A stretch of DNA of 64,000 bases from Taxawa tesnikishii (nom. ined.) (taxonomy: Eukaryota; Ascomycota; Dothideomycetes; Dothideales): the NCBI GenBank assembly GCA_030247885.1, contig JAPDRO010000022.1, forward strand, positions 248,001-312,000, given 5' to 3'. The notes below the pieces were generated by a model, which saw nothing but the letters and a program-made list of their open reading frames with translations, was not told the DNA's origin and ran no database searches. A program made the position numbers and the translations under genes. Shown here piece after piece: positions 1 to 64,000 of this stretch. The first letter of the stretch is position 1. Each line of letters starts with the position of its first letter.

Positions 1-537
1 AAACCGCAGCCTCATGGATGCGTCGTCGGTCACACACCTACATGTTACTAGAGTGCTGTATCGTCACCGTCTGGCTTTTTGTTCAGTCGTGGCAGTACCT
101 CATCTGCAGAGCAACACGGGCTTGCCGGTCAAACACTATTTGGTCTTGACGCAGAAGCTTGGTGGAAGCACGAGTAAGCATACTTCATGCCTCTGTTCCG
201 TTGCCTCCCTTTCTGATTTTCAGCTTCACATCCGGTCCCATACGCCGAGCTTTGACAGACTGGACAGAGAAGGTGTCTTCAGGCGGGTTGGGAGTCGCAC
301 GATGGAGAAGGCGGGAACCAAGAGGGCAGTTGGGGTAAGGGGAGAGGTGTCTGATCCAAGCCGAGACTTCTGGAGGAAAAAGAGAAGAAAAACGCCAGCG
401 GAAAGCCAGCTTTGTGCATGTAATGTCCTTTGGTGGGGCTGGTGGCAAGAGGTCTTCGCCTCGTTCGAGTGGAGAGCAGCGGACTGTATACGTGACTATT
501 GAAGGCGTTGAACGATAGCGCATTTAAACCCCCTTTA
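1..537. other. Intergenic, no gene seen
   Basis: No open frame here has a recognisable domain or convincing fungal codon use. The stretch lies downstream of the amidase stop codon, so it is probably that gene's 3' flank or the flank of a gene outside the window. Confidence 0.5.
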
Positions 538-2876
538 TCACATGATACCCTCTTGCCTCTTAAAGAGGATCTCTCCGCCGTTGACATCGCTGTAACCCGC
601 CACGCTCGGCTTCACAATGCCCGCCTTGGTCAGATCCTCGACGAGACCGAAGATCATGCCATCGCAGCCGCGAGCCGCCATAATGTCAACGGTGACGGGG
701 AGGTACTCTGTATGGTTGGTGATGTCGGAGTAATATTTGGCTTGACCCACTGCACACGGCCACAGTCAGCAAAACCCATCTATAACAGAACCCTCCCGAG
801 GAAATCAAAGAGAATCGAGGAGAAAGAGCCACTTACGCGGCACCACGAAATCCGGTCCGCCCCAGAACGGAGACACCCTGCTGGTGCCGAAGCCATACGG
901 TACGCCTGGCGGCCCGCTGTATTGGTTCCTGTAGTTCACGTCCGCGTCGCTGCCGACGTAGATCAGCAAGCTGTCACTGCAGGTGCGCTCGTCCGCCACG
1001 AGCACGTTGTCCGCCCACCAGTCGGCGAACAGGGTCCGGTTTGCGTTAGCCTGGTCGAGGGTGGAGTCCGGGAACGAGTCGGCGAAGCCCCAGCGGATGA
1101 GCGGGGCGGGGTCGACAAAGGGCAGACGGCCGTCGTGTGCGGCCGCGTAGTCGGCGTAGAAGGGATCACGGACAAGCTTGGTCTGCTCCTGGCCGATGAT
1201 GATGGGGTATGTGATGTTGAGGAGGGTGGTGAGGGAGACGTTTGAAGGACCGGAGCTCAGCCAGGCGGCAGTCGTGTTGAAGGGTGCGGCTTGCGCGGAC
1301 AGGAAGGAGGTGATGTTGGCGAGGAAGTCGAGTAGGATGGTGTCGCCATCGGAGTCGGCGGTCGTTGGGAAGCCGATGGTCTTGATCTGAGAGGGGAAAG
1401 AGTGGCTAACGGTGATGTTGGTTTGGTACAGGGCTTGCGCGGCAGCGGTCCAGAGGAAGGGATCACGCGTCAGGAAACCGGCCGTGTCGAGCTCAGGAGC
1501 CAGTGGCATGACGCCTGTCAAAGGAACAAGGTCGTGTGATGGCCGATTGCCGAATAGACCTTGGACCTCCGATGGACCACGGATACTACCACCAGTATCA
1601 CTGCCGATGGTCAGGTCGAGCCAAGCGTAGGAGCCTGCGCCCGCGCCCGGACCAGAGGAGGAAGAGGAGGGGTCCTGGTAACCGTCACCGCGAGGGTTAA
1701 ATGGTGAGTGGTAGTCGACCCAGTCTGCGGTAGCCTCTTCTCCGTTGGCGAACTGTGACGTCTTCATTTTTCCCACCACGATAGCTCCAGCATCGATTAG
1801 GCGCTGGATCGCAACAGCTGTAGTGCTCGCTGGAGGGTAAAAGTGATACCACGCCCTGTTGCCGTTGGAAGTCCGCAAGCCAGCGATATCGTAGATATCC
1901 TTAACACCCAGGCGAACACCAGCCAAGGGCTTCTCTGCAGTCTTGGTGTAGTAGAGCCGAGAAGGTACCGCAATGGCAAGAGATTGGCCGGGGATATTCG
2001 CAGGAAGAACAGAAAAGGTGCCGTCAGTGCTTGGTGCGGTCGTCTCAAGGAAGGCTCCCTGGAAGTCGCTGTACAGTCTCCACGCCTCGTACACTGCAAG
2101 GTTCGCGTCGACAAAGTATGGTCCGTTAGGAATAGCGGTGGTGTTTGAGGCAAAGGAGGAACCGACGGTCAATGTGCCGTTGGTAGGGCTGGACAGCTTC
2201 GGAGAGAAGCCATGTCTGGATCCTACTGCACCGACGTATTGGATGTACACAGCTAGCGAAAGTCAGTATGCTAAGAACACAGCAAACATAGAATGGCAAT
2301 GCGATCAGTGCTCTCAACAATTGATCCAGCCGACCGGCCAACTGCTATCGCGAGGGAACAGGACTACTGCTCGATCCGCATACAGACAACATATGCGCAC
2401 ACGGACTGTGCCTCACTTGACCTCAATGCTTAGCGGCAGCTGTAGAGGCAAAGAAGGTCCAGCACTTGAGCCTCGATGATGCCTCCGTAGTTGCGGCGTC
2501 GCATCGCGATAGCAGTTACGCAGTCATCTGGACTTACTGACGAGAACAGTAGATGCGGCGTACCTTCCAGGAAGCCCTCCGACCACACATCGTCCGAGGC
2601 CGTGAAACCGGAGAGGGTGGCTGCAAAGTCACTGCTGCTGTAGCCCAACGAGGTGGTTGAGATAACAGTTAAAGGAACAAGACCACCAGCTGCCTCAGCG
2701 GCCTTGTGGAGAGATCTTTGAGAGGTCGGAAGGGTAGCCACTGGAGCTGGCGGCACATAGTACGGGACACCATCGAGCTCGACCGTCTGACCTGTAGGAG
2801 CGAATGTGAATGCAGAGGCAGTCTGCAGGAGCTGAGCGAGAGAAAAGAAAACGAAAGATCTGGTAAGGGAATCCAT
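538..2876 (-). CDS. Secreted amidase-signature family protein
   Basis: Predicted amide hydrolase of the amidase-signature family; the substrate cannot be told from sequence. I model three exons: 2876-2564, 2252-837 and 749-538. All join in phase and give 646 residues. The first 22 residues look like a signal peptide (hydrophobic [15 protein letters not shown]). The catalytic core shows the family lysine in GVKDIYD (about residue 222) and the nucleophile segment [11 protein letters not shown] (about residues 321-331). A serine/glycine-rich stretch precedes it. Residues 30-200 form the extra N-terminal region seen in long fungal members. The C-terminal exon carries the conserved end ([15 protein letters not shown]). 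The first intron is long for this window (311 nt), so a small missed exon is possible. It is divergent from the phosphatase that follows. Confidence 0.88.
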
Positions 2877-3579
2877 GACCGCTATCGAGGACGCGGTGCC
2901 TGTCCTGGCCTACTGCTCGACGGGAGCACACATCGATTTATACGCAACAGTTTTTCACGCCGGGCCTTTCTCTTCCACAGGATACTCATGGCTTACCACG
3001 CTTTCGTCAGCGGGGACAGCTGTGAATTATCCGGAGCTCGACAAACAGCTCCGCAAGTACCTGGAGCTAGCTGCAAGTCGCCGGTGCCGAAAGTCTTGGT
3101 GAAGGCTCCAAGGATTCTACAGATCCCGTATTTCTTGACGGCTGCCTAGATAGGAAAGCAATCAACGGAGTCGACAGGTACAAAGGCGGCATTTGATAAG
3201 GTTGCAGTAGTTCGGTAGCCGTACCTGACATAGACGCGGCGCAGCGTTGCGCCTATCTCTGTATCCACTCACCAAACCCCACTGTTGACCGCCGGCCTAC
3301 GGCAATCCTGCTGCGATCGGAGCACTCATTGTGCATGGATGTGCGGTCGAGCAGAGTTCGACCGGTAGAACGAGTCAAGACTGGAAAGAAGAAGATGAGT
3401 TTGCTAAGATTGACGATGAGCTGAGGTGCGCTTGGCAGCCGAGGCGAGCTGCGAGTCATGCCGAACCATGGGACTTCAATCCTTCCGGAACATCTTATCG
3501 TTGTTGTACACTAGACGAGCCTGTCATCTCTGCATGAACATAGAGGTCGAGATAAGGTAGCGAAAACAGTGTGACTAAG
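2877..3579. promoter_or_regulatory. Shared upstream region of amidase and phosphatase
   Basis: This stretch lies between two divergent start codons and holds no convincing ORF, so it most likely carries both promoters. I see no distinctive binding-site array. Confidence 0.4.
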
Positions 3580-4531: not shown

Positions 4532-4805
4532 TGCTGCCCCGACCTACCATGGCATGCCAGTAGTTGCCAACGATCAGCCAGACTAACTGGTCAAGCGCTT
4601 TTGCGAGCTGACGGTATAGCCGAAAAAGCACCAGGTGATCTGAGTGCTGGATCATTGATGCCGGGGCTGAGGACCAGAGTTGAGAACAACATACCCTACC
4701 CATATATGTCGTATATACGTAGATATAGAAGTGTTGCCGCTGCCATGCGGTAGCCGTTCGTCAGCCTGTTCAGCTTCCAGTTCCAACATGCCCAGTATTC
4801 ATGTC

Positions 4806-6222
4806 TCAGGCATTGAGCCCCTCAAGAAGCAGGCTAAAATGATCGACATCAACGGGTCCTTCGATCTTTTGCCTCTCGGGTATCTTCCGCCACATCTTCC
4901 CCTCAATCTGCCACGTGCTCTCCAGATCATCCGGATCCAGGACGCCAAACGCACTCTGCAGCTCCGGACGATATGCCTCAATTTCGTAATCCTCACACTC
5001 GAACGTTTCCACTGCCGGTGGGGCACCCGTCAGATTGGTCATGATGTTTGTCAACAGACGAGTGGCGATGTTCGAGTACGCGCGGTGGACGGCGGCCCAG
5101 CAGTCTGACAAGACTGCTTTGCCGACGCGCTGGGGATCGTCGAGGATCCATTGGTCTTGTTTTGACGGCGCGACTTGCAGGCTGACGTGCTTGACGAGGT
5201 GCAGACGGTGCAGGGAGCGTGTGAAATCGTTCGTGCCGCGGACGTGGTTCGGGAAGGGAAAATGGCCGTGTAGGAGAAGTTTTTGATGCGGAAGAGACCG
5301 TGTGACGTGTACTTGTCCCCCGGGCGGAGCTTCATCGCGCCGGGGGTCGCTGGGAAGAGAACGTTCAACAACGATTGTATACTAGTCGGAGCGCCGTGCT
5401 CGAAGAAGTCGTAGGTCCCGTAGGCGCTCAGGAACGAACCCTCGTTGTAGCCGACTGTGGCCCAGTGTCGCACCCTGAAGAGGCTTGAAGGCGCGATACG
5501 CGAGTCTCTCGCGATGTTCCAGGTTCCGTGGGAAGAATCATAACCCGGCACTTTCCCTCCGTACAACTCAGTGTCCTGTTGCAATTCCAGGAACTGATAC
5601 CTACTGTCCGGAAACCCCTCTATATAGCGGCCTCCGACATGACAGTTTGACAGTGTCGAAAGACGACCCAGTGTCGCCAGAATCGCGATACGCTGCGGTT
5701 CGATGACCTCGAATAAAGGCCCCCACAGGCTTGCGCTAAATTGCTTCCCTCCATAGACCGGTGAGAGGGGTCAGTATTCTGGCCGGGCTCTACGTCCTCA
5801 TCAACAAAGATAAGGAAGCTCTCGATGCGCTTCTCCAGCGAACTCGCCTTGACGAATTCGAGAAAGGAGCGCTCGACCTCATCGCCGAGTATGGTAGGGC
5901 CATCGGGAGCTTTTCCACCGTGGCTACCGATACCCTGCCAGGTAAGCACACGTTGCTTGGCGAGCACCCATTCTTTCACCAGATCGAACCGAGCGCATCT
6001 GAACAACGCGGGCAAGGCGATCCGCCTGAGCTTCCTGCAGGTTGAAGACAGATTCCTCAGCGGCGTCCCTGTTTCTGTGTCGGCGTCGACCAGGTGTTTG
6101 GAGGGCTCATGTCTCGCCCTCCTCACACTGGGAGGGTCTGTGTCCAGAGCGCCGACGATGCGCAAGAGTATCTCTTCAGGCAGCGATGTGAGATGGACTG
6201 GAGCCATCCTTGATGCAGACAT
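4806..6222 (-). CDS. F-box domain protein, frameshifted
   Basis: Probable substrate adaptor of an SCF ubiquitin ligase. Residues about 12-50 hold an F-box-like segment (LTSLPEEILLRIVGALD), followed by a long fungal-type C-terminal region. Exon 1 is 6222-5794. A 50-nt intron (5793-5744) with donor GTAGAG and a perfect TACTGAC branch site leads into exon 2, 5743-4806. Exon 2 needs one extra base near 5251-5262. Upstream the coherent frame reads NFSYTAIFP and downstream it reads FPNHVRGTNDFTRSLHRL, and the two overlap exactly at a short C/T run. With that base restored the product is about 416 residues. Either the base is missing from the assembly or the gene is a young pseudogene; the first fits the rest of the window better. 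Confidence 0.68.
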
Positions 6223-17604: not shown

Positions 17605-17613
17605 CGGAGCCAG

Positions 17614-19790: not shown

Positions 19791-21429
19791 TCACAACTTC
19801 GCCGTACTCTTCGTCCGTTCATCCCCATTAACCAAATTCCACACCTCAACACCCTCCTCCCACATAACATCATCCCACCAATCGACCTGCCCCTTCTCAT
19901 TCAGCCTCTTAACCACCGTTTTCTTCTGCCTCTCCTTCTCCCACTGCACATCGTCCCCCTTCACAAAGCTCGCAAAAGCGCATTCAACGGCTTCAACGTC
20001 ACCTTCTCGTCCTCCGTCAATCCCTCTCCCCATCCATTTCCCCAAAACCAGATACTCATATCCGTAGAATGCGTGACTTTCCACTCAGGCGGCAGAAACG
20101 CATCAACGCACTTGGCTCGCCACTCGATGCGATACCTCAGCACGTCCCTGCCGGGCCTTAACCCGCCTTCTGTTAACTTATCTACAAATCCGCGCTCTAG
20201 ACAGTGTACCTGCATGTCCGCATACAGCCTGCCGAAACAATCCGCCCAGTCCTTGCAATCCGCTGGCAATTTGCCATCCGGTGAATAATATCGCATCAGG
20301 CGTTCGCATTGCTTGCGCGGATAGTCGGCCTCCAGACGATTCAGCACAGCGTCGTAGGAATCGGTAAGAGGCGGGCGCCAGGAGCCGTACACGAAGTGCT
20401 CGTCGCGGCATTCGCCGATAAGGAGTCTTACGCCACGGCGCCGCATGCGCTGCGCGAAAGCCCCGTGTTGATGTCGTGGATCAGGCTCCCGGAAACGAAG
20501 GCGCCGTCTGAGAGGGCGCGGAATTCGGAGTACTTGAGCTTGGATTGTATATCCACGAGTTCGTCGGAAGGTAGCTTACGCAGCGCGGCGAGTTTTTCGG
20601 GACCGGACAAGTGGAGAGGGATTCGGAGGGCGTTTAAGAGCTCGTCGAACTGGGTTTGGTGCTCGGAGAGAGACTTGGGCTGCACCCCGGACCCGTTGGA
20701 GAACATGATAGCGCGCTTGATTATGGACTTTGAGTCCGGGAGGTAGAGGTCATGAGCGAGCTGTTGGAAGGTGCTATGCGCGCCAGCAGACAAGCCTCCA
20801 ACCGTGATATTCTCTGCATCGCCTCCGAAGCGATTGATGTTACTCTTCACCCACTCAAGCGCCATCCTCTGGTCCCAAAACCCCAGATTCCCAACTGTGT
20901 CTCCGTCGCCCTCCGCCTCCCACTGCAGCTCCTTGCACGCCAAGAACCCAAACGCATTCAACCTGTACGCTGGCTGTACGATAACAGCTCTAAACTGTGT
21001 CTCGCTCAGCAGCGGCGCCATAGCTTTGGGAGCCGTATTCGGGTTCCCAAACTGCAGCCAGCCGCCGTGAATGAAGAAGAACACCGGCCATCCCTCCTTT
21101 GGCGCGTCGCCAGTCGGTATATAGATATTCAACTGTAAACAGTCTTCATCCCACAAACTCTTATCAGGATTTCCCCGATACCCCGGCTGCGGACAGACGC
21201 CCGTCCCGCCCGCAAACCGACCCGGATTCGCCTTGGTGCCGTACCTAAAGAAATCCGGTAGCGGCCTTGCGCGACGAAAGCGGTACGGACCGACGGGAGG
21301 AAGGGCGTAGGGCAGGCCGCCGAAGTAATGGCAGAGTGTGCTGGATTTGTTGGAGACAGTGAGGCCTTCGATGCAGCCCAAAGGTCCGAGATCGAGAGGA
21401 CAGGGCGCGGTGGTGTGGTCTGCGGGCAT
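19791..21429 (-). CDS. Type-B carboxylesterase/lipase family, two frameshifts
   Basis: Alpha/beta-hydrolase of the type-B carboxylesterase family, with no signal peptide and so probably cytosolic. The start is the ATG at 21429 (MPADHTTAP). Conserved elements are EDCLQLNIYIP, the oxyanion segment FFIHGGWLQFG, the nucleophile elbow GGLSAGAHS (L replaces the usual E before Ser), and the later LIGECRDEHFVYG and VTHSTDMSIWFWGNG. The frame changes twice: at a C run 20461-20464 (minus-strand GGGG) and at an A run 19974-19977. Adding one base at each restores about 546 residues, ending in WDDVMWEEGVEVWNLVNG. Both changes are in the missing-base direction. Without repair the protein stops just before its catalytic acid/histidine half. 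Confidence 0.75.
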
Positions 21430-23645: not shown

Positions 23646-25113
23646 ATGGCGAAGAAAGAGAAGAAAGCCAAGGTCGAACCTGGGGAAGTCGCAGAAGACG
23701 ACTTTGCGCACTTTTCGTCAGACGATGGACAGGAAGTCGCTTCGCCAACCTCTGCATCTCCCGAAACCTCATCCTCCAAGAAGCGCAAACGCTCATCCGC
23801 ACCGACCGATGAGCTAGAAATCGACGTCAACCTTCCTGAGCCGCCCTCCAAAAAGCCCTCCGTAAAGCAAAAAGGCAAAGACCAAACCCACCACTGACGG
23901 CTCTACGACCGAGAATGTGACCGTCGCAGGCGCGAGCGGGAACGGCGCGGAGCTCGCCATTTCCGACAACACTCACCCAAAAGACACCGGCGCTGCAGTA
24001 ACTGAAAAGGAGAAAAACCCGGAGAAGCGTTCCGCGCACGGGATTTGGATTGGTAACCTACCGTTCAGTTGCGACAAGGCCATGCTGCGGACTTTCTTCC
24101 TCGAAAAAGCCGGCATCGTGGATTCCGAGATCACGCGCGTGCACATGCCTACTCCAGGTGGTGGTGCCGCTGACGCGAAAAGAGGGCTAAAGCCGCAGAA
24201 CAAGGGTTTCGCGTATGTCGACTTCAACGCGCAGGAGGTGGTACAGAGGGCCATTGGGTGCAGTGAGCAATTGATGACTGGGCGGAGGGTGTTGATCAAG
24301 GATGCGAAGAGCTTCGAGGGGAGACCGGAAAAGAGTGCTGCTGCTACTGCAAATGGCGAATCTGGGGAGGGAGTGGGTGCAAAGACAAGTGCTGCGGTTG
24401 GAGGAAGTACTAAACCACCCAGCAAGCGCGTATTTGTTGGAAATTTGGGCTTCGACGTCACGAAAGAGGATTTGGAGACGCATTTCAGTCAGGCGGGCGA
24501 AATCGAGGATGTGCATATGGCGACGTTTGAGGACACAGGGAAGTGCAAGGGATTCGCGTGGGTACGGTTTGTTGAGATTGAGGCTGCGGAGGCTGCCGTG
24601 AGGGGATTCATCTTCAAGCAAGACGAGGAGGAAGAGGAAGAGGACGCAGAATCTTCATCTTCAAGTGAATACGGAGAGGAAAACGAGGACGAGGACAAGA
24701 AACCCAGCAAAAATGCAAGCAAGAAGAAGAAGAAGAAGGCCAAGAAACAGAAGAAGCCCCGGAAATGGTTCATAAACCGCCTTCTTGGTCGCCCCTTACG
24801 CTGCGAATTTGCTGAAGATGCATCGACACGCTACAAAAAGCGGTTCGGCAAGAACGCGAATAGCGAAAGCAAGAATTCCTCCAGACCGGACTGGGAAATC
24901 CCCGCCGACGCCGCTGAAGCTGCCGATGTGGAGGGGGCAGAGTCAGCGAAGCGTAGACGCACCAAGGGCGACAAGGAACAGCGGGAGGAGCAGCGCAAGC
25001 GGAAGCATGTTGATGCAAGGAATATCCGGCCCGGTGCTGCGTTGGCGAATGCACCGAGGGCGTCTGGGGCGATCGTGGCGGGTGCAGGCAAGAAGATTTC
25101 GTTTGATGATTAG
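23646..25113 (+). CDS. Nop13-like nucleolar RNA-binding protein, one frameshift
   Basis: Two-RRM nucleolar protein of the yeast Nop13 type, expected in 90S/pre-60S particles. The N-terminus is lysine- and acid-rich (MAKKEKKAKVEPGE, then ELEIDVNLPEPPSKK). RRM1 starts at HGIWIGNLPFSCDKAML and its RNP1 is KGFAYVDF. RRM2 starts at KRVFVGNLGFDVTKEDL with RNP1 KGFAWVRF. RRM2 is interrupted by a long acidic/lysine-rich insert (DEEEEEEDAES, then KKKKKKAKKQKK) before RPLRCEFAED. The tail is basic. The first 75 codons and the remainder are in different frames. Removing one A from the A5 run at 23869-23873 joins them without a stop and gives 488 residues. This is one of only two extra-base events in the window. 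Confidence 0.82.
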
Positions 25114-32506: not shown

Positions 32507-34050
32507 TGTTGGTCGTAGCCGTGTGACTGTTGTGTGTTCTTTTGAGGTACGAGTTGAGTGGTTGTGGTGGAGGTGGTAGAGGTGGGATAGTGGGATGGCT
32601 GATGTAGAATGTTCAAGGGCAGCAGGTACAGCTAGCCGATGACCTCGATGCCAAGCCAGCCGGCAATGTTTATAATGATGGCTCTCAATACCTTCGCAAA
32701 CTGATAGTCGGATAGCCTCAAAATCATACTAGGGAAAGCGGTAAGATGGTTGGCATGATGGGATGTGCCTGCCGTGACAAGAACTCTGCACAACTCAGAC
32801 AGATAGGGAAGGATGTACTATTACTGGTTTCTCCAAGGGCTTGAGAACAATATCTCATTGGATTCCGGACAGTAGCTGCGCCTTCCACTTGAATGCTTCT
32901 AGGTATCTGGTTCTAGCACCTGTTATACCCGTATGCGCATCAAGCAGCTAGGTCGTTCGCAGGCCCGAGCAGCTTCGAGAGCCAGGCGTCGCTGGCCTGT
33001 TTACGTGTGAGTACGATCGGGGAGCGGCAGCCTAAGAGGAAAGTTCAACCTGTAGTAATGCACCTTACGCTCTTGTGCTCTCAAGGGTTGAGCTGCCTAT
33101 TCGCCGAGTTGGTATTGCAGGGCAGCAGCAGATTCCAACACATTTATCCTTATCGCGAGTGGGAAGACACAACCTCTTGTACTGTCCTAAATATCTGAAG
33201 CCAAGTCCAAAGTCAGAGGAGGGCACCTAACAGCCAAGCAGGCTACACTCCGCACAGGTACGAGTCCGGCTTGCAGTAGCGACTGAGCAAGGGCAGCCGG
33301 CTGCTGCACGCGAACCATCTTACTTCACCCTCTTGCACAACAACAATGGTACAGTTTCTCCAACGATGATAGGCGGTGACGGTGATGGCCATGTCCGGCT
33401 TCTGCTGCGCACTTTCCTGCAAATCATAACCCCGCAGCAGCTTGGTCGAAACGAACAACAGTGAGGGAGCAAATCCCTTGGGATCATGCTTCTTTGGCCT
33501 TTGACGGCTGACTACTGGCTTCTCAACCGAGCGGGCGTGGTTTGGCCTGGTTTGGCGTGGTTTGGCCTGTTTGCACACAGCTTTTGGAACAAAACTCATC
33601 GCCCGCCCGCCCGCCCGCCGCTGCTTCGAAGCTCCCCTCCAGCGACGACGCCAGGACACGAAACACGCTCACCGCACACTTCTTGTCTCTCGCCGCGTCG
33701 CATCAGCGCGTACATCAGCTTAGCCCTGAAGGAGACGGATCCGAACTGTTCTTGCGCTGCACTGGTCTGGGAGTCTGCTGCACAGCTGGCTGATCCTGCA
33801 AAGTTCAAAAGCTTTCGCAGGCATCGCGTCGCGTCTGCCATACCATACCATTGACGAGGTTGCGCAAGCTTCCCAGTCATCTTCAGCACCGCACGCCTTC
33901 AGCGCGCGAGTCCAGTTGTCTGTTTTCTGTATACATAGCGTGTCGTGAATTCCACGTTTGAGACGTCCAATCCAACGTCACCCTCGCCATACCCTCGCGT
34001 CGCGTGCTCCCAGTTGCACCGTACATCTCTCAATAACTCTCGCAACCACA
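32507..34050. promoter_or_regulatory. 1.5-kb divergent upstream region of ZNF830-like and BYE1-like genes
   Basis: No gene seen. Near the BYE1 side there are short direct repeats: TTTGGC(C/G)TGG units at 33541-33572 and a CCCG run at 33600-33620. Pyrimidine-rich sequence follows up to the ATG. The middle part (32640-33240) is unremarkable. Confidence 0.4.
33600..33620 (+). repeat. (GCCC)n-type short tandem repeat
   Basis: About five GCCC units (cgcccgcccgcccgcccg) lie just after three TTTGGCCTGG-like units at 33541-33572. Both are in the presumed promoter of the BYE1-like gene. Confidence 0.75.
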
Positions 34051-40007: not shown

Positions 40008-41861
40008 ATGGGCTTCTTGTCCCGCACGCACCAAGAGCCAGACTCGATCACGCCAGAGTCTGGCTCAGGGTCCCAACCCTACACCTCACCGAACGAGAAA
40101 GATGAGACTAAGCAGGAAGTCATTCACCAGGAAAACGTTGCTCCCGAAGAGCACTCGAAATGGAAGGTCTCAAAGACCGGCGACGGAGATGTCGCCATGG
40201 CTCTCTTCCACTCCCCTACAGAAATTCATGAGCCGATCGATCCGGTAGAAGAGAAACGACTGGTCCGGAAGATCGACTTCATGATTCTGCCCTATCTGGC
40301 CGTTTGTTACGCATTCTTTTACATCGACAAGACGACACTGAGCTACGCGGCCATTTTCGGTATCAGGGATGACTTGAAGCTTCATGGCACGGAGTATAAC
40401 TGGCTGAGCTCCATCTTCTATTTTGGATTCCTTGTTTGTAAGTACGGTGTGGTGCCTTACGTGCAACATCACTGATTGTTTGTAGGGGCTCTTCCGACAA
40501 ACTTCTTGCTGCAAAAGTTCCCGGTCGGCCGTTATCTAGGTGCCAACATCTTCATGTGGGGTGCTCTCCTTATGTGCCAGGCTGCAGTTAGGGTAAGAAC
40601 CAGCTTCTCATGGGGCCTGTCCGATGCTTTGTTAACCATCATTGCAGAACTTTACCGAACTCGCCGTCGTCCGCGCGCTCTCTGGAGCAGCAGAGGCATG
40701 CAGTGACCCAGCATTCATGCTCATCACATCCATGTGGTGGACCAGACGCCAGCAACCGGTCAGAATGGGCTTGTGGTATACGGCCAACGGGTTCGGTATC
40801 GCGCTCGGCGGTCTTCTCGGATACGGCATCGGAAACATCAAGGGAAGCCTTCCCAGCTGGAAATTCGAATTCATCATCATCGGCGCCGCGTGCTGTGTGT
40901 GGGGTGCCGTCATGTACATCTTCCTCCCCGACAGCCCTGTGACCGCGAAGGGCTTGAGCATGAGGAGAAGCGGATTGCCGTCGAGAGATTGAGGGAGAAC
41001 CAGACAGGAGTGGAAAACAAGCACCTGAAACCCTACCAGGTGAAGGAGGCGTTTACTGACCCCAAGACTCCCCTGTTCTTCTTGCTTGGCGTTGTTGGTA
41101 ACATTCCAAAGTAAGTCAAAGCCTGCAGTCTACAAGAAAGGCATGTTGACAACGTGCAGCGGAGGTATCTCCAACTTCGGAACCATCATCATCAAAGGCT
41201 TCGGTTTCGGCACTCTTGAGACCACGCTCATGCAAATTCCATACGGTTCGTACCAAATATCTATCCATTCTGCACTCGTCCGCACAACGCTAACGGGTTC
41301 ACCCCAGGCTTCCTAATCGCCTGCAGCATCCTCACCTGCGTCTTCCTGAACAACTACATGTCGCGCAAAGGCGCGCAAACCCGCTGCTACTTCATCCTCC
41401 TCTTTCTCTGCCCCAACATCTGCGGCGCCTTCGGCCTCGCCTTCCTCGACGCCCACAACAAAGCCGGCCGTCTGATCTGCTACTACCTCACGGGCCCGTA
41501 CAACGCAGCCTTCGTTATGATCCTCTCTCTCACAACCGCCAATACTGCCGGTCATACCAAAAAGGTCGTCACCAACGCCATCCTCTTCCTGGGTTACTGC
41601 ACGGGCAACATCGCTGGCCCGTTCTTTTACAAGACGGAACAGAGCCCGAGATATGAGTTGGGGATTTGGAGTATGATTGTCAGCCACCTGATCGAAGTGG
41701 TTGTGATTATCGCGCTGCGTGTTCTGCTTAGTCGCGAGAACAAGCGCAGGGATCGTATTCAGAGTCAATTGCCCGGTGGGCTGGAGGGCAGAGATTTGGA
41801 TGCGACGGCGTTTAGCGATATGACGGACATGGAGAACTTGAACTTTAGGTATATTTACTAG
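40008..41861 (+). CDS. MFS transporter, DAL5/allantoate permease type, one frameshift
   Basis: Plasma-membrane proton symporter of the anion:cation symporter branch, which includes yeast Dal5 (allantoate/ureidosuccinate) and vitamin carriers such as Tna1 and Vht1. Exons are 40008-40437, 40486-40592, 40648-41110, 41160-41245 and 41308-41861. A hydrophilic N-terminus of about 85 residues precedes KRLVRKIDFMILPYLAVCYA (first membrane span) and DKTTLSYAAIFGIRDDL. About twelve spans follow. The central loop is split between frames near 40958: it reads LPDSPVTAKGL, then HEEKRIAVERLRENQTG. One added C restores it, giving 546 residues. The substrate cannot be predicted. Confidence 0.85.
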
Positions 41862-50194: not shown

Positions 50195-51735
50195 TCATCC
50201 GAGTGGCGGACACAGATGCGTGCCCGAAGGCGACGTCGGCACAGGAGGCCGTTGCACCACCGCGCTCTCCCTCTCCCTCTGCCTCAGCCACGCATGCCTC
50301 AACATCTCGCTCGCCGTCTTCCTCCGCCTCGGGTCCGTGGCCAACATGCCCCTCAAGAAATCGCAAAACACGGTCACGTCCGCATCGGGCATGTCGTCGC
50401 TCCGCGACTGCGACTGCGACGGCGACGGCGACGGCGAGGGGGCGTGCGCACGAGCTCTTCCAGAGGGCTCCTGGTCCCGCTCTGCGGCGTGCGGCGCAGC
50501 TGGCGGTTCGAGTCGAAGAACTCGTGCGAGCGGGAGGCGTTTGCGAGGACGATTTCGGGCACGGAGCCGAAGATGTCCATCAGCGTGGCTAGCCGGTCGT
50601 CCTCGGCGGTCCAGGCGCCGTTGCGGGCGGGGCGGCCGGGGAAGGGGAGGTTGCCGGTGACGGATTCGAAGATCTGGTGGGACGGTGAGAATGGAGGAAC
50701 GGGGGAAAGGGAGGGAAGGAGGGGTTTTTTTAGATGGAGAGTTGAGTGAGTGAAGGAGGGAGGGCGGGGACGCTTACGTACCACGCAGCCCAAGTTGTAG
50801 ATGTCTACGCTGGGATCCCAGGGTGCGCCTAGGTCGATTTCGGGAGCTCGGAGGAGGGGAGGTTGGATGCAGTCTGTTAGATGGCGGTCCACCCAGCATG
50901 CTGTCGGATGTCAGTCTCAGTAGGGAGTGGTGAAACGACAACGGTATATCCTATGCTCACCCACGCCAAAATCGCTCAGCCTGATCCGCACGTCATTGTT
51001 TTCGAAAACAGAGGGACTGGAGAGCTTCACCCCTTGCGCAGAACCTTTCTTGCCCAACGCTTCCGCCACGCTGGCTTCGCTGTCTTCGAGTTCTACCAGT
51101 ATGTTCGACGGCTGTATGTCCGTGTGCAACACCCCGCATTCGGCGTGCAGGAAATCCAAGGCTTCAAGCAACTGTCTTGCGATCTGCCTCGCGATGTTGT
51201 AAGACAACCGGGATCGGCGTGCGCGCGAGGTTTGCTCGCCGATGCTCGTGCCAAGTAGTTCCATGACAATGCATGTGTGCTGTCCCGCGGCGCTTCTGTG
51301 GTCGAAGCTGTCCAGCATGCGAGCAACGTGCTGCTTTCCGGGATGGTCGGACTGAACAGAGATCTCTGCAACCCGCTTCATGATGTCGATCTCGAAGAGG
51401 TCGTATTGTCCGTTGCAGAAATCACTGTTTAGGACTTTGACGGCAACATGCTTTCCTGTCCTGCTAGCCAGTGAGCCGCGCTCGCGAACGCAACGGCGAG
51501 TGTCGTACCTGGCATCGTGCGCCAGCCAAACTGATGAATACCTGCCGGCTCCAAGCTTTCCCTTGATGGTGTACCTCCCATCGCATAGGGAATCGCCAGG
51601 CTTCAAGTGGAGCAGTCCTTTGGATGTATCGTTATTGGAACAAGCGTTGAAGTCGCGATTGTCTGGGGGCCTTTCAGGATTGACGGGCGCAGTCGACTGC
51701 TTGAGCCGGGACTTGGTCGACGACCAAAAGCCCAT
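50195..51735 (-). CDS. SRPK-like serine/threonine kinase, one probable frameshift
   Basis: Kinase of the SRPK/CMGC type, expected to phosphorylate SR-rich proteins. Exons are 51735-50961, 50900-50782 and 50673-50195. The N-lobe has the Gly loop LGAGRYSSVWLA, the lysine in HVAVKVLN and the helix C region DIMKRVAEI. The catalytic loop reads HTDIQPSNIL: HTD instead of HRD is normal for SRPK, but the loop lysine is Q here. DFG is present (LSDFGVACW), as is the APE-like LLRAPEIDLG. The C-lobe runs to FLRGMLATDPRRRKTASEML. One base seems missing in the minus-strand C5 run (50438-50442), inside low-complexity RS/PS repeats, so that repair is less certain. The product is about 457 residues. Confidence 0.8.
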
Positions 51736-52971
51736 GATTCTGGAGCGGTATGATGTGCAGGCAGGGGAGGAAGGCAGATGGAAGACAAAGACGAACGAAG
51801 AGCTAGGGAAAGAAGTTGAAGTTGGCTCAGGGAAGGCCAAGAGGTGAAGTCATCCTTGCCTTTGATGACCCTGGAGGGGAGCGCAAGTTGTTGAGTGAAC
51901 CAAAATCTACTTATGTACAGGGCAGCACCACATCCGCGGGAGGCAGTAACGTGCAAAGTCGAGCTGTGCTGATTGTTGAATCAAAGTGAGTGAGAAGCAT
52001 CGCCCAGTCGCCTTCGCTTGGGTCATTATATCGTCCACGCCTCACAAGCAGAGCGGTTGCCTGTGCGACGACCGTTGCTGGACCGAAGCCGCAAGCGCTG
52101 AGGATGGCCAGCACGAGTGGATGAGATTCCTGCCCCTGCCAGGTTCATTGTGATCAGCGACCCGGTTTGACGTCAGTTGCTTGTTCCTGCAAGATGTTCA
52201 GGGACAAGGACAAGCGTCCATGTGGCGACGGAAAGCCTAGCGGATCGGCCGCCCCCTTGACGAACAAACAGTGCAAACACATCCCGTCGAGCTCCATGTT
52301 TCATGCCTCGGCAACACCGCATCAGCGCATCATCGCATCAGTGTTCCGCTTGCGCTTACGGCCAAGCGAGCGAGCGACATCTCTCGGACAGACCGACTCC
52401 ATGGGCACATACGAGCCGGGCTGGATGAACTGCCGATATGCGACACGGAGCATCGATTGCGCCGTCTAAGTTGAATGTTGCTATAGGACACGTATGAAAG
52501 GCATCCACAATTGATTGGCTGACGGTTCAGGTCGATGCTGGAGCATGTTCGTCCATGCGTACTGTAAGGGGTCGGCCACCAAAGGTTTCGGCAGCCTCCA
52601 CATCTCAAAGAGGCAAGTCCTGCGAGCATGCCGGAGTTGCCGACGCACCCTTCACGGCCGATAGCCGACTCCTCCATTCCTCCCACCTCGGTCACGCTCC
52701 TGTCATTGTCTGCAAGGTGAGATGGATTGAGCGCTCTCGTTACAGGACATCGGCGCACCGGCCATCACGTCAGCCGTTATCTAGCCTTCGCTTGACGCTC
52801 GACATCTCTCAGACCTAAGGCCGTAAGCAACGAATGGTTAGCGGGTGGGGGCGCATGTGATATCTAGGCAGGCAGCCCCAGTTTTCCGCTTACCGTGCTC
52901 CAATCCTGAGCGAGACATATATCTCACATTACCTACCACGTTTTCCCGAGCATCGGTACAGTACACACACG
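51736..52971. promoter_or_regulatory. Divergent upstream region of SRPK-like and P450 genes
   Basis: About 1.24 kb with no convincing gene on either strand. A minus-strand ORF at 52758-52330 (142 codons) lacks domain content. Confidence 0.4.
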
Positions 52972-54573
52972 ATGCATTTCCTCGGCCTGCTCAAACAGGG
53001 CGCCCTGGGCGCCGTCGTCGTCTACGTCCTCTACTACATCTACTGGCAGCTCACCACCGGCGCCAAGCGACGTGCCATCATCAGAGAGAAAGGATGCCTA
53101 CCTGTCAAGAAGTACCCCGTCAAAGATCCACTCTTCGGGTTGGACCAGTTTCGCAAGACCCTCCAATATCACAGGGAGAGGAGGCTTCTGGAAGCGGCTC
53201 GCAACAGGTTCCTTGAAGTAAGCGCCAACACCATCACCCTGCCCCTCCTTGGCAGACAGTTCATCATTACCATCGAACCCGAGAACCTGAAGACTATCCA
53301 AGCTCTAGAGTTCAAGAAATGGTCTCTAGGAAAGCGACGCATAACCACTTTCACACCTTTCCTTGGTACCGGCATCTTCACTAGCGATGGAAAGGACTGG
53401 CAGCACTCTCGCGAGATGCTGAGACCCAACTTCGTCCGCTCCCAAGTCGGAGATCTTGACACCTTCGAGTCGCATGTGAAAGACCTCATCGAGGCTATCC
53501 CGAGAGACGGCTCAATGGTCGATCTCCAGGATCTCTTCTTCCGCCTCACTATCGACAGCGCCACCGAGTTCCTTTTCGGAGAGAGCACGAGGTGCCTTGC
53601 TCCTGGCACCAGCACCGTTTCCAATGCACGCTTTGCAGAAGCCTTCAACCGTGGCCAGGAAGCCATTGCTAACCATGGCCGTTGGGGAGCTCTCGGCCCA
53701 CTCGTTCCTCGTGGCGAGTTCTGGAAAGACACCAAATACGTGCACGGTAAGTTTCAGCAGCAACTCTGGCGCGATACGGGGCAGACAGACTCATTTTTTC
53801 CCTGTACAGACTTCGTCGACACCTTTGTCGAAAAGGGCCTGGCCAAGCGATCCACTCTCCTCTCCGAAAAGCCCAACAACTCGTCCCGCTACATCTTCAT
53901 CGACGAACTCGTACGCCAAACCACCGACCGCGTGCGCATCCGCTCCGAACTCCTGAACATCCTTCTGGCGGGTCGCGACACCACCGCCTCGCTGCTCTCT
54001 AACGTCTGGTGGATGCTCTCCAAGCGTCCCGACGTCTGGGCCCGCCTGCGTGAAGACGTCGACAGCCTCGGTGGCGAACGCCCGACCTTCGAACAGCTCA
54101 AAGACCTCAAGTACCTGCGCGCCGTCCTCAACGAATCCCTGCGCGTCCACCCCGTCGTGCCGACCAACAGCCGCGAAGCCGTCGTCGACACCACTCTCCC
54201 CGTCGGAGGCGGACCGGATGGCAACGCACCCATCTTCATTCCCAAGGGCCAGGTTGTCGTCTGGTCCGTCTATGCTATGCATCGCCGTAAGGATTACTAC
54301 GGCGACGACGCGGATGAGTTCAAGCCGGAGCGCTGGTTGGGTGAGAAGGGTCTCCGTCCTGGATGGGAGTACCTGCCCTTCAATGGCGGCCCGAGAATTT
54401 GTCTGGGCCAGCAGTTTGCGCTCACGGAGGCGAGTTACACGACAGTCAGGCTCATGCAGGAATTCAAGGACATCGAGAGCAGAGATCCGGAGCCATGGCG
54501 CGAGTGGCTGACGTTGACCTGCGTAGGCGCGGGTGGATGCAAGGTTGCACTGACGCCCGCTCGAGGAGGATAG
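52972..54573 (+). CDS. Cytochrome P450, CYP52-like
   Basis: Membrane-anchored microsomal P450 resembling the fungal CYP52 clan (alkane/fatty-acid omega-hydroxylases). Two exons (52972-53746, 53810-54573) give 512 residues. An N-terminal anchor (ALGAVVVYVLYYIYW) is followed by the I-helix AGRDTTAS, the K-helix ExxR in NESLR, FKPERW, and the heme loop FNGGPRICLGQQF with Cys at about 456. The 63-nt intron is a multiple of three and stop-free, so the genomic frame is open throughout. Its GTAAGT donor, TTTTTTCCCTGTACAG acceptor and the clean join YVHDFVDTF argue that it is spliced. It is next to no biosynthetic backbone enzyme, so primary lipid oxidation is more likely than secondary metabolism. 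Confidence 0.92.
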   Translation: MHFLGLLKQGALGAVVVYVLYYIYWQLTTGAKRRAIIREKGCLPVKKYPVKDPLFGLDQFRKTLQYHRERRLLEAARNRFLEVSANTITLPLLGRQFIITIEPENLKTIQALEFKKWSLGKRRITTFTPFLGTGIFTSDGKDWQHSREMLRPNFVRSQVGDLDTFESHVKDLIEAIPRDGSMVDLQDLFFRLTIDSATEFLFGESTRCLAPGTSTVSNARFAEAFNRGQEAIANHGRWGALGPLVPRGEFWKDTKYVHGKFQQQLWRDTGQTDSFFPCTDFVDTFVEKGLAKRSTLLSEKPNNSSRYIFIDELVRQTTDRVRIRSELLNILLAGRDTTASLLSNVWWMLSKRPDVWARLREDVDSLGGERPTFEQLKDLKYLRAVLNESLRVHPVVPTNSREAVVDTTLPVGGGPDGNAPIFIPKGQVVVWSVYAMHRRKDYYGDDADEFKPERWLGEKGLRPGWEYLPFNGGPRICLGQQFALTEASYTTVRLMQEFKDIESRDPEPWREWLTLTCVGAGGCKVALTPARGG

Positions 54574-56341
54574 CTGGTTTGGGATGATTGACGGTTCATG
54601 TTGATGATGGATCTGATTGCGTTTAGCGGCTTTTGTTGTGCGTCTGTTCTCGCGATTGTCATATACATACGATGAATTCTAACCTCTAACCATGATGCAT
54701 ACCTCCCGTTCCTGACTTGGTTCGCCGTAGTGTTTCGCCCCATGGTGTCCTTTGGTTGTGCTTTAAATCCCCCAAAGAAGACAACCTGCACCGTAACATC
54801 GTCCCGAACATCTCGTGACAGCGGCGGATAAATGCTCATGACACCGGTGAACAAATTCCTCCTCTTGCCACCAAACGCATTCTTGATGAGATGCGTAGCC
54901 GCGTTATCGTCCTCGACAACAATGTGCTCGGGCTTCACGTGCCACCTCAAGCCTTCCTTCTCGTCATAATACGTGTCCATATTGTCGTCCGGTCGGTCGA
55001 ATCTCTGCTCCAGACCGGCATCCCTCCCCTGCCGCTGAAGGAAGATGTTCTTCCTCTTACCCTCGATCCACCTCTCTACCATCTCCACCGCCACTTCGTT
55101 TCCTACCAGATCCCAAAACCCATCGCTCGCCATGATCAGAAAGTCGCCTCGGGCGCCATTCCTCACCACCGTCTCCGTGATTTCGGGCTTTGCCGAGAGG
55201 TACGGAGGCGTCTTGTTCACGCCTGCAGGCCGCGGCTTATGTCCCCAGAACCGCTTGTGCAGGTCCGAGACCTCGTCGTCGTTCCACTTCCAGCGCACGT
55301 CACCGATCGCGCGAGTCACGGCGATGCCCAGCAAGCGACCGGTTTTGGGGTCGATGACGTCCGGTTCGCCGGGATGCTCGTCACGGATCCGTGACACCTC
55401 GCCGGCGTTGAACCCCGTATGGTCGGTGGACAATGGGTGGGCGACGTACGCGCCCTTTGCGTCGTCGAAGCGGCCCAGCACGGCGCGGGAATCACCGATG
55501 TTGGCGATGCGGAGCACGGAGTGTGCAGGGTCGAAGAAGGCCGACAGCGCGCAGGAGCCGCTGAGCGCGGGCGCCATCATCCTGATCGCTCTCGCGTCGG
55601 CAGGCGGGTAGTCTCTCAATGCCAGGGCGGCAGCGAGCTTGATTGCGGCATCCAAGGCCGTGAAGCCCTCGCTGATCCGACTGTGCACTTCCTCGTCGTC
55701 AGGGAAGTAGGGTCTGGACGGCGATATGAATTCATTCAGGCCCTGCGCCATGAAAGGTGAAAACGCACGCGCAAGAAGATGGGAGGTTGCATGGCCGGCG
55801 TGGCCGTCAAAGATGGCCCAGTAGTACCACTCGCCAGGCTGCGATGTAGTCCCGAACCTGCCGATGGTATACGCGTCCTCGCAAATGTAGTTGCTGGCGT
55901 ACTGACATGCGTGGATGTGCTGACCCGTTGAGAAGGTATGGGATTCTTCCTGATCACGCAGTTTCTGAATCGCGGTGGCGAGGCTGGTGGCAGATTCGTC
56001 GACTGGAAACATTCGCCTCACGAAAGTATCGAGAGGGTGGTCCCATTGTTCGGGAGTGCCAGCATCGGGCTCGTCTGGGTCAATGATGCTGTCGCCGCCT
56101 TCCGCGGTGAAGCTGGCATCGCTGGCGGCGTGGACCACGTTCGTGTGGGCGTAATACCAGAACGATAGGGTACCTGCTCCGAAAAAGCGGACAATGGAAG
56201 TGCTAACGTCGCAGGACCTGGTCCGTTGAATTTGGAGGCGTTGCTGACGTTGCCGAAGAGGCGGCTACTAGTAGTCCGTCTAACTGAAGCTCTGATGTTC
56301 GAGGGCAACGTGGTATGCCATGAACGTAGGAATCTTCGCAT
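54435..56341 (-). CDS. Mitochondrial PP2C-type protein phosphatase, one frameshift
   Basis: Metal-dependent Ser/Thr phosphatase similar to yeast Ptc5/pyruvate dehydrogenase phosphatases. The start ATG at 56341 gives an arginine/serine-rich presequence (MRRFLRSWHTTLPSNIRASV), then a membrane-span-like FFGAGTLSFWYYAHTNVVHA. PP2C metal and core motifs follow in order: AIFDGHAGHATS, IANIGDSRAVLG, STDHTGFNAGEV, VTRAIGDVRW, IMASDGFWDLVGNEVA and RDDVTVQVVFF. One T is missing from the T5 run (plus-strand A run 56182-56186) between presequence and span. The open frame ends at 54435, overlapping the convergent P450 coding end by 139 nt. The last ~90 residues look unlike PP2C, so the true end may be nearer 54700, through a late intron or another stop. 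Confidence 0.82.
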
Positions 56342-57437: not shown

Positions 57438-59142
57438 ATGGCAGCAAATGAGAAGTGGGTTGAAGAGCCTGGCATTGTGTTTCTCCCAGACGATGGCTTA
57501 TCCGAGAATCGCGACGTCTTTGGAGATGACAAGAACCACCAGGTAGAAAGCTCTTACCATTACATGTCCACACCCGCACTACAAACTGACACGCATGAGA
57601 TCAAATACAAAACCCTGTCATGGCCCTTCGTCGCTACGATCATGACCGCGGAGATCGTCACAGGCGGCATCGTCACACTCCCTCAAGCACTGGCAGTTGG
57701 GGGCATGGTGCCTGGACTGATCATCCTTGTCTTCTGCGGCGTGTTTGCTCTCTTCACAAGCCTTTTGCTCATCGACTTCAAGATCAATCACCCAGAGGTC
57801 CACAATATGGTATCGCATCTTTGCAGCGTGGGATGTTACCAAAGCCTTGCTGATTGCCTGCGCAGGGGACGCGGGATATATCCTCTGCAAACCTTTCGGC
57901 CTTGGACTACTCGGACGTGAAGTCTTATCCTTTGGGTAAGTGTGATATCGGCGAAAGACCATGGGCAATGGCTGAAGATCTTAGCACGCTCCTTTTGCAA
58001 TCACGGGCGTCGGAGCCATGGAGATGCTTGGACAACTAGCGCTCGCAACGTTGTCCGGAAGCAAGCTTTGCGTGATGACCTACACCGGCATAGTCGCCGT
58101 CGTGACTACACTCTGCGCAATGCCGCGTACATTCGACTCTGGACTCACATGGCTCAGTCTGGCTTCCTGCATCTCGGTGGTTGTTGCATGCATCGTCGCC
58201 ATGGCCGGTGCGGGAGCAGAACCTGCGCCTGACAGTTATAATGGCTACCGTACCGTCGAACTTCTACACAGCATTTCTGGCTATTACGAACCCCGTAAGT
58301 GTACGCTGCCGCTGTGTTAGGATCCGTGTTGATGAACATCCGTACAGGTTATTGCATACGCCGGTCACTTTATGTTCTTTCCAATCATGTCTGAAATGAA
58401 AAAGTACCTTATTCTCCCTTCCTATCTTCTCTCACGGACCAGCTGACCATCCCACAAGCCCCCGTGACGCCAAGAAATCAGCATGGTACCTGCAGAGCTT
58501 CGCGACCACCTTCTACGTCGTCTTCGCCGCCGTCTCCTACTCTTACCTGGGCAGCCAGGTCCAAAGCCCCTCTCTACTATCCCTCCCGATCAAATGGGCA
58601 AAAGCGGCATTTGCACTCTTTCTCCCGAACCTCATCATCGCTGCTTCGCTGTACAACCACACGGCGGCGAAGATCATCTTCGTCCGCATCTTCCGCAAAT
58701 CGCATCACCTGCATAGCCACACATTCACCGGCTGGGCGGTTTGGATCGGCTTGGTCGTGCTGACGAACGGCATCGGGTTCCTCCTCGCCATTGGTGTGCC
58801 GGTATGTTACACGTCTGACCCTCTCCCCCTTTTCCCTTCGCTCATCCCCACCCTCACCGCTAACGCATGCTTGCGCAGATCTTCTCCTACCTCTGTGGTC
58901 TCGCAGCAGCCCTGTTCGCATCGTGGTATACGTACGGCCTTGCGGGCGCTTTCTGGTGGCACGACACTTACCACTTGGAGGGAGGCTGGCCGGCGTTGAG
59001 GGAGAGGTGGATCATGTTCTCCGTCTGTATCGCTACGTTTGTGGTTGGTGCGTTCATTTGCGTTGCAGGAACTTACGCCATGGTGCAGGGGATTGTTGAT
59101 GCATATGCCAGTGGCGCCGTGGGCACGCCGTTTGCTTGTTAG
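57438..59142 (+). CDS. Amino acid transporter (AAAP family, mtr-like), three frameshifts
   Basis: Multi-pass amino-acid/proton symporter of the Aa_trans (AAAP) family, similar to fungal neutral amino acid permeases. Exons are 57438-57809, 57866-57935, 57985-58294, 58348-58403, 58459-58801 and 58879-59142. Landmarks are YKTLSWPFVATIMTAEIVTG, LIDFKINHPEVHNM/GDAGYILC, GQLALATLSGSKLCVMTYTG, AYAGHFMFFPIMSEMKNPRDAK and a final span ending GAVGTPFAC. To keep phase, one base must be added at 57866-57868 (G run) and one at 57993-57996 (T run), and one removed between about 58225 and 58262. The result is 471 residues. The third event is the least precise. Confidence 0.78.
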
Positions 59143-60419: not shown

Positions 60420-60471
60420 TGTATTTCCGGAATTCCCTCTATCGGGCTATGGCGGACAGCGCTTCAGAATG

Positions 60472-61932: not shown

Positions 61933-62734
61933 ATGGCCACCCCGGAGGTCTCAACCCGATATGCTTCTTCGACATCACACTGGGCGGCGAGCCACTCGGA
62001 CGCATCAAGATGGAGTTATTTCAAGACGTGGTTCCTCGCACGACAGAAAACTTCCGGCAGTACTGTACTGGGGAGACTAAGAATCACCTCGGCAGACCGC
62101 AGGGCTACAAAGGCTGCAAGTTCCACCGCATAGTACGTCTTTCGTTTCTCGTTTCTGCTTTCTGCTACAGTCTACACGAAAATGCCCTTCTCTTCGAAGC
62201 GTTTGCCCACTTTCGAACGAAACCCTTTCTCCACGGCAACATGGCAACACTCGAGGTACTGAAAAACCGGACAGATCCAAGGATTCATGCTCCAAGGCGG
62301 CGATTTCCTAAACGGCGACGGGACAGGTTCGGCCTGCATCTACGGCACCAAATCCTTCGCAGACGAGAACTTCACCCTCAAGCACGATATTCCGGGATTG
62401 CTCTCTATGGCCGTAAGTTGCTTTTCTCCTTCCCCGTCCCCGATTATCCTCCAATCGACTCGTTCCGCAACCCTCACGCACTGCTATTCTCAGCATCCGT
62501 GTGAAGAGACATTGCCTAACACCTGGCTGACTCAATCACCAGAACTCCGGCCCCAACACGAATGGTTGTCAATTCTTCATCACAACCGCCGCGACCCCCT
62601 GGCTTGATGGCAAACACGTCGTCTTCGGCAGGGTGGTCGAGGGTATGGACGTGGTGCAGAAGCTCGACAAGGTGCGCACCAAGGCCGACAAGCCCGTCCA
62701 GGACGTCACTATTGCGCAGTGTGGTGAGATGTGA
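61933..62734 (+). CDS. Cyclophilin H-like peptidyl-prolyl isomerase, one frameshift
   Basis: Peptidyl-prolyl cis-trans isomerase of the PPIH (U4/U6-U5 tri-snRNP) subfamily. Exons are 61933-62132, 62275-62412 and 62543-62734. The core is unmistakable: [82 protein letters not shown] and [16 protein letters not shown]. The insert after [10 protein letters not shown] ([14 protein letters not shown]) is typical of PPIH rather than cyclophilin A. The start MATPEV and the core are in different frames, and one base is missing at about 61943-61955. The repaired length is 176 residues, as expected. The tail CGEM is the usual PPIH end. Confidence 0.86.
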
Positions 62735-63313
62735 AGGGGTTGAGATCGAAACGAATGAAGGGGGGGATAGGCGCCACGGTTCGGGAAAAGTCCTGGTCCG
62801 CTTGCCGAGGATGCCGGTGGTGGGAGCGAGTATTGCGCTCGAGAAGGCGCATCACCTCCGCTTAGTATATCGGGACATGCCCAAAAGAGTTCACAGGATC
62901 TCGAGAGGCACCTTGAGGGATGAAGGAATAGAGGGAGGAGGAAACCGTGAAGTACCCTGAGACCGAACGGTTCGTTCATGAATTGAGCATGTACTTTTGA
63001 AAACAAACATGGACTGGTTCCCGGATGCCCGGAATTTGCTCTTTGTTTCCCTTCAACCGGGATGCTGATCTAACATGATTACATACATACAGGCCGAAGA
63101 ACGCCTTGCTTACGCACTTCTCGAGCGCAGGGTATTTTTTCAGCGGCTGGGGGTGGCATGGCCGTTGCCCCTTACCCCATTCGTGCAGCTGTTGCATCAC
63201 CGGGCATGTTCCCATGGCACCCGCATGCGGTGCAGTGACTTTGGTTGGTTGTTTGGTCCCCCAGTTTCGTTCTTCCAGCCCAGTCTCTCACTCTTCACAC
63301 GTCAACCCTCCCT
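62735..63313. other. Convergent 3' flanks
   Basis: About 580 nt between the cyclophilin stop and the SNU114 stop. No gene seen; small minus-strand ORFs overlap the cyclophilin exon only as shadows. Confidence 0.45.
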
Positions 63314-64000
63314 TCAACTCGGCGCATCCAAAATCCCGCTCTCCTTCAAATTCCTGAAAAGCTCAGGCTCTAGGAACTTACTAATCGTAACATCCTCCGC
63401 CAACCCCTTCCTCCTCCTGGTCTTCATGACGAAATCCCTCGCCGTCGCCTGCGCGCTCGCCGGCTCAAGCGGTCTCAGCTTGATGCTCTTGTCGAGCGGG
63501 TCACCAGGCACGATACTCCAGCGATCAAACACCAGACTAACAGTCGCTTGGCCCTGCGTGTGGATGCGCAGATCCGTTTCGAAACCAAAGGAATCGATGA
63601 CGGGGATGAGGCCCTTGACGCTGTACAGCGGCGTGCCCGCGATGGGGCCATCTTGCAGCACGTGGCCGCGCCGGCGGGCGAGTACAGTGTAGAGCGAGGA
63701 CACGGCGTCAGCGGGTCCGATCATGGAGCAACTGTACACGGGCTCCATGAGACGTGGCGATGCCATGAGGAAAGCGCTGTAGCAAGCGCGTCTCGCCGTC
63801 GGGATGATCTGACCACCGCCACGGAAGATGGCTTCGTTCGCCAGACTGACATCCGTGATCTTGAACTTCGTGTTCCGGATCGGCTCCTCGCAGAGCGGGC
63901 CTTCCCTCGTTCCCCACGCGAAGCCCTGACGGATGGTATCGCGCACGCCCTTGAGGAGCTTCTGATCGACGTCCGAGGGCAGGGTGTCGTTTTGCAGGAT
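63314..64000 (-). CDS. SNU114: SNU114/EFTUD2 (U5 snRNP GTPase), 3' part only
   Basis: C-terminal 228 codons of the EF-2-like GTPase of the U5 snRNP, which controls spliceosome activation. The gene runs off the window end, so the GTPase domain is not visible. Domain IV/V landmarks are [97 protein letters not shown] and [18 protein letters not shown]. The end ([20 protein letters not shown]) is the SNU114 type; true EF-2 ends differently. The stop follows SGILDAPS. The visible part has no intron and no frame problem. Confidence 0.93.

Follow-up and report, generated by a model that had tools for sequence, protein, structure and literature searches.

Frame breaks at short homopolymers in a fungal genome assembly, most likely caused by uncorrected run-length error

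Passages of a study on Oxford Nanopore assemblies of filamentous ascomycetes (PMC9453082) describe how run-length errors lead to small indels and thereby to frameshifts, with indels dropping as depth and polishing increase. The parts of the work on Kastor, a profiling of gene-fragmenting errors (PMC12007338), that deal with the kinds of error report that in one long-read assembly most indels are false deletions, and that deletions peak after runs of 4-5 identical bases, insertions being less linked to runs.

Here we analysed the frame breaks in a window of 64,000 nucleotides, bases 248001-312000 of one contig in an assembly of 29.4 Mb and 34 contigs. The nuclear GC content of about 54% (window and 18 other nuclear 10-kb loci), the short introns (39 modelled in the window, with a median of 66 nt within model limits of 45-220 nt) and the presence of ten internal TGA codons in the match to cox1 are consistent with a filamentous fungus. 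We conclude that the frame breaks in the window are almost certainly uncorrected homopolymer-length errors of a long-read, nanopore-like assembly, in genes that most likely are intact in the organism. As such, they are a known technical artefact and not a biological feature.

Frame breaks in eleven genes of the window

A first-pass annotation of the window had called at least 18 single-base frame breaks in 11 genes, and inspection of the three reading frames by eye confirmed that all 18 sites (Table 1) switch frame between coherent coding pieces. The directions also agreed, with a base missing at 16 of the 18 sites and a base in excess at 2 of the 18. The breaks had further been said to lie mostly at short runs, and indeed a run of at least 3 was found within 2 bases of 16 of the 18 sites, compared to 5.9 expected, a run of at least 4 at 13 (1.4 expected) and a run of at least 5 at five (0.2 expected); no run of at least 3 was present within 2 bases of 40958 and 58225-58262. 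This run context is biased in that the 18 positions had been placed with knowledge of the runs, and for that reason a blind gene finder was built, whose set of shifts is free of this bias.

Table 1. Genes of the window with single-base frame breaks and the homopolymer context of each break
Gene	Position	Strand	Frame break	Run context
F-box-like gene (part)	4842..5596	-	base missing at 5251-5262	adjoins run of 4
Carboxylesterase-family gene	19794..21381	-	base missing at 20461 and at 19974	each adjoins run of 4
RRM protein (first-pass name Nop13-like, putative)	23646..25110	+	extra base at 23869	in run of 5
Sacsin-like gene	26091..28616	+	base missing at 27468 and at 27569	run of 4; run of 3
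Zinc-finger gene (first-pass name ZNF830, putative)	31543..32506	-	base missing at 32229, at 32180 and at 31950	runs of 3, 5 and 4, respectively, within 2 bases
BYE1-like gene	33949..36556	+	base missing at 34746 and at 35086	run of 5; run of 3
MFS transporter	40296..41858	+	base missing at 40958	no run within 2 bases
Protein kinase	50200..51849	-	base missing at 50438	adjoins run of 5
PP2C phosphatase	54438..56341	-	base missing at 56182, near N-terminus	in run of 5
Amino-acid transporter (matched part)	57612..58786	+	base missing at 57866 and at 57993; extra base at 58225-58262	runs of 4; no run of 3
Cyclophilin H	61933..62734	+	base missing at 61943-61955, between start codon and conserved domain	

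The amino-acid transporter is the clearest case, as matches to a single Pfam family, Aa_trans, follow one another in the order of the profile within 1.2 kb, yet in three different frames: profile positions 2-58 (E 5.2e-09), 121-221 (E 0.0022, under the cut-off) and 229-338 (E 5.2e-06). In a similar way, MFS_1 is matched in two frames of the MFS transporter (E 0.0034, under the cut-off, and E 3.4e-18). Two other switches in this gene, at 41112 and 41257, which came from a first codon-usage decoder without introns, were rejected, being ordinary introns by eye. In the BYE1-like gene, PHD_5 (E 5.9e-06, just under the cut-off) lies in one frame and TFIIS_M (E 1.5e-19, from profile position 29) together with SPOC (E 1.7e-20) in another; in the PDB this gene weakly matches a BYE1 chain (E 0.11), and the PDB search returned no match for the piece before 35086. 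The carboxylesterase carries COesterase (E 3.7e-53) in its first piece, where the match stops just before the first break, and its second piece equally had no match in the PDB search, its motifs being what we take to be those of the family. Since these two PDB searches were empty, contiguity at the carboxylesterase and BYE1-like pieces rests on Pfam coordinates and on presumed motifs.

For cyclophilin H, the first exon piece has peptidyl-prolyl isomerase H (1mzw) as its best PDB match (E 2.4e-21, from chain residue 10) and Pro_isomerase covers three exon pieces; by eye, the frame of the domain has a stop upstream and no ATG between that stop and the domain. The remaining Pfam matches are RRM_1 in the second piece of the RRM protein (E 2.3e-24), SACS in an upstream piece of the sacsin-like gene (E 1.3e-08), zf-C2H2_jaz in the zinc-finger gene (E 4.9e-05), PP2C downstream of the 56182 break (E 1.1e-37), Pkinase upstream, in the first frame of the protein kinase (E 1.7e-17), and a weak F-box-like match under the cut-off (E 0.0012). 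The other frame of the kinase holds, by eye, what we presume to be a C-terminal kinase motif. Nop13 and ZNF830 are putative first-pass names; what is supported here are the domains. Arginyl-tRNA synthetase and P450 are present in the window as long unbroken frames.

Taken per site, recognised conserved protein is joined at ten (19974, 20461, 27569, 35086, 40958, 50438, 57866, 57993, 58225-58262 and 61943-61955), the recognition coming mostly from motifs that we assume to be conserved; at 19974 and 27569 such presumed motifs carry the junction itself, and the Pfam and PDB matches at the ten fall to one side of the break or in another part of the gene. For the remaining eight sites (5251-5262, 23869, 27468, 31950, 32180, 32229, 34746 and 56182), the support comes from an open frame, from codon usage or from splice phase.

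Blind frame shifts and run lengths across the assembly

The blind gene finder is a 3-periodic Markov model that allows GT-AG introns of 45-220 nt as well as direct frame shifts, and ignores both homology and run length. Its training set comprised the window together with 18 further nuclear stretches of 10 kb each (244 kb); from the 20 stretches fetched, an AT-rich one (L009) and a mitochondrial one (L023) were left out. In total 25 direct shifts were placed, 5 in the window and 20 in the other nuclear loci. The five in the window, at 5258 (F-box-like gene), 20462 and 19974 (carboxylesterase), 23879 (RRM protein) and 40962 (MFS transporter), all fall at sites of the first-pass annotation, with the same sign in 5/5. 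Among the 13 of the 18 sites that were not seen blind, seven were modelled as non-coding on at least one side, including 27468 and 27569 in the sacsin-like gene, one (50438) as coding on the opposite strand on one side, and five had an intron at most 60 bases away. Because only 5 of the 18 sites were recovered, the blind rate is a lower bound. The expectation that automatic gene calls would be cut or given false introns was borne out in part, in the form of two modelled introns: one of 175 nt spans the 57866 break and stops 9 bases short of 57993, and one of 53 nt stops 6 bases before 35086.

The blind shifts are biased in sign and in run context. A base is missing at 21 of the 25 (p 0.0009) and in excess at 4, and a run of at least 4 is present at 13 of the 25 against 2.45 expected, a number reached in none of 200,000 simulations; a further four have a run of 3, and eight have no run of at least 3. 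The 25 junctions show mixed runs of all four bases, or no run, and the codon signal persists on both sides of the shifts. Ten of the 18 other loci contain blind shifts and eight contain none. By this measure, the window is no more affected than the other parts of the assembly that were sampled, with 5 shifts in 33.3 kb of coding DNA in the window versus 20 in 68.6 kb in the 18 loci.

Breaks were also found elsewhere by homology. Examined by hand among the best candidates, the CCT pieces and the HSP70 pieces each show one frame change without room for an intron, near 528,262 of contig C1 and near 494,624 of contig C3, respectively. Breaks seem to be scarcer in these highly expressed families than in the window genes, and long runs may be avoided through the codon bias of the families. 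Matches to sugar transporters were left out of the rate, as the 9 of 323 candidates that were scored favour unbroken genes.

In the 244 kb of nuclear DNA, the run-length distribution ends in a cliff: 132 G/C runs of 5 are followed by no G/C run of exactly 6, compared to 59.7 expected from base composition, and A/T runs of 6 number 24 compared to 52.8 expected. We rejected coding constraint as the sole reason for the lack of 6-runs, since the cliff is present in non-coding DNA too, where the G/C runs number 94 (length 5), 0 (length 6), 4 (length 7) and 4 (at least 8). Counted over the whole genome for lengths 6 and 7, there are 747 G/C 6-runs, 136 G/C 7-runs and 3,839 A/T 6-runs. The control, a 50-kb stretch of E. 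coli K-12, carries little weight for a fungus; in it, the step from 5 to 6 takes A/T runs from 98 to 30 and G/C runs from 11 to 2; in its coding sequences (31 of 45 CDS rows, hand-chosen) 9 G/C 5-runs were counted against 23.4 expected and no 6-runs against 4.3 expected. A natural shortage of long G/C runs may hence account for part of the lack of 6-runs in coding DNA; it fails to explain 132 runs followed by none in 244 kb.

Mitochondrial copies as an internal replicate

Contig C25 (80 kb, of which all but the last 121 bases were examined) carries cox1 twice, on opposite strands, and contains repeated copies of mitochondrial DNA. Comparing these copies is close to rereading the same sequence and provides the best control. 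Over 9,146 bases, the copies L031 and L035 show 0 mismatches, and their 19 gaps are each a single base long and without exception in runs of 4-9 (counted in the longer copy); 18 of the 19 are in runs of at least 5, which make up 8.1% of the bases. The comparison of L029 with L031 gave 4 mismatches and 18 gaps (17 single), and that of L029 with L035 gave 6 mismatches and 27 gaps (24 single); as L029, L031 and L035 copy one stretch, their pairs are not independent. L030 and L029 showed 0 mismatches and 2 gaps over 1,790 bases, and L032 and L034 showed 14 mismatches and 8 gaps (7 single). One of the six pairs, L023 and L033, is a misfit: 66 mismatches were counted along with 31 gaps (20 single), and runs of at least 4 account for a minority of them. 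The copies may truly vary in length, but run-length differences accompanied by hardly any substitution, or by none, are the pattern that miscalled lengths produce. Contig C26, a candidate uncorrected copy, has 90% identity to mitochondrial DNA along 1.4 kb, where substitutions outnumber gaps.

The lack of 6-runs was not seen on the mitochondrial contig (246 A/T 6-runs against 214 expected), and the mitochondrial error profile therefore differs from the nuclear one. Our guess is that a higher depth on this contig explains why its 6-runs are kept.

Origin of the breaks and comparison with published assemblies

Three other explanations were weighed. That the region has decayed and the indels are true ones in real pseudogenes would suit the two or three breaks per gene in several genes, such as the amino-acid transporter and the zinc-finger gene, and decay, too, favours deletions. 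Nevertheless we consider this very improbable, as housekeeping genes are affected, the coding signal is retained before and after the blind shifts, the window holds long unbroken frames as well, and the rate in the 18 other nuclear loci together is at least as high, with breaks in 10 of them; moreover, decay would strip 6-runs neither from non-coding DNA nor make mitochondrial copies differ mainly in run length. The latter two observations would also be left unexplained by an organism-wide programmed minus-one ribosomal frameshifting at short runs, to which the predominance of one direction (21 of 25) and the 13 blind shifts at runs of at least 4 could point. With all four bases in the runs at the sites and 8 of 25 shifts at no run of at least 3, such a mechanism has hardly any probability left in our judgement.

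Spliced introns could have been mistaken for frame breaks in the first-pass annotation, as happened for two of the three apparent switches that the first decoder placed in the MFS gene, and the sites 34746 and 57866 hinge on splice phase. Against this, at each of the five blind sites the decoder chose a direct shift even though GT-AG introns of 45-220 nt were open to it, and for most of the remaining sites inspection by eye showed coding pieces that directly adjoin, leaving no room for an intron; as a general explanation, introns are thus extremely unlikely. Homopolymer-length error, which the first-pass annotation had proposed, is supported by the blind shifts elsewhere, by the run-length cliff and by the mitochondrial copies. 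The points that count against it are the junctions without a run of at least 3 (2 of 18 and 8 of 25), the extra-base direction in 2 of 18 and 4 of 25, the 8 of 18 other loci without a blind shift, the lack of G/C 6-runs in E. coli coding DNA as well, the 6-runs kept on the mitochondrial contig and the misfit of L023 and L033. There is a small chance that some of the frame changes, though the lesser part, are true features of the organism, be it as genuine alleles, as transporter genes in decay or as frameshifts in translation; the run-less 40958 and 58225-58262 are the foremost candidates. The remaining uncertainty rests on these two run-less sites and the ill-fitting controls.

Under homopolymer-length error, the length of single-base runs would have been undercalled by a long-read assembly, most likely nanopore, of low depth or insufficient polishing, such that true runs of about 4-7 bases would often lose one base in the recorded sequence and in a few cases gain one; genes would then switch frame at the miscalled runs, and those of the organism would most likely be whole. 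Gene counts, intron counts, pseudogene calls and claims of gene loss made from this assembly would be wrong in the many affected genes, and the blind rate of 25 shifts in 244 kb, scaled to 29.4 Mb, would correspond to about three thousand breaks. The run-length distribution and internal repeated copies together make it possible to test an assembly for homopolymer error free of reads.

The present assembly resembles the assemblies of filamentous ascomycetes, as far as these are described in the passages of PMC9453082 considered here, in its small indels at runs that shift reading frames. It differs in that polishing had brought those to a BUSCO completeness of about 98%, whereas we infer the platform and depth of the present one. 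In the Pseudomonas syringae 508 assembly, according to the same parts of PMC12007338 as above, A/T runs were affected about twice as often, whereas here nuclear G/C 6-runs are missing more completely than A/T 6-runs. With the Kastor profile, in the parts of that work that describe it (PMC12007338), the breaks reported here share the excess of deletions over insertions, the position of deletions at runs of 4-5 and the weaker link of insertions to runs.

Runs of seven in the window

Across the whole genome, 136 single-base runs of G or C were exactly 7 nucleotides long, and three of these 136 were located inside the window, where approximately 0.3 would be expected.

Positions of the 7-nucleotide G/C runs within the window
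Feature	Approximate position
G/C run of exactly 7	37351
G/C run of exactly 7	37972
G/C run of exactly 7	62759

AT-rich stretch on contig C1

A 10-kb stretch of contig C1 (L009, C1:100001-110000) has a GC content of 23%, compared to approximately 54% for the genome, and possibly represents a centromere or a repeat-mutated region.

Mitochondrial contig C25 and the cox1 on C26

Within the mitochondrial contig C25 (80 kb; stretches L023 and L029-L035), the same sequence is repeated several times, in both inverted and direct orientation, and two cox1 genes are present on opposite strands. This arrangement could be a concatemer created during assembly, or the molecule could be a genuine multimer. 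cox1 is also present on the 25-kb contig C26 (L037, 21601-23000), with approximately 90% identity to the C25 cox1; this copy is fragmented and contains stops, and differs from that of C25 by more substitutions than gaps. It could be a nuclear copy, derive from a second organism or reflect a very noisy read.
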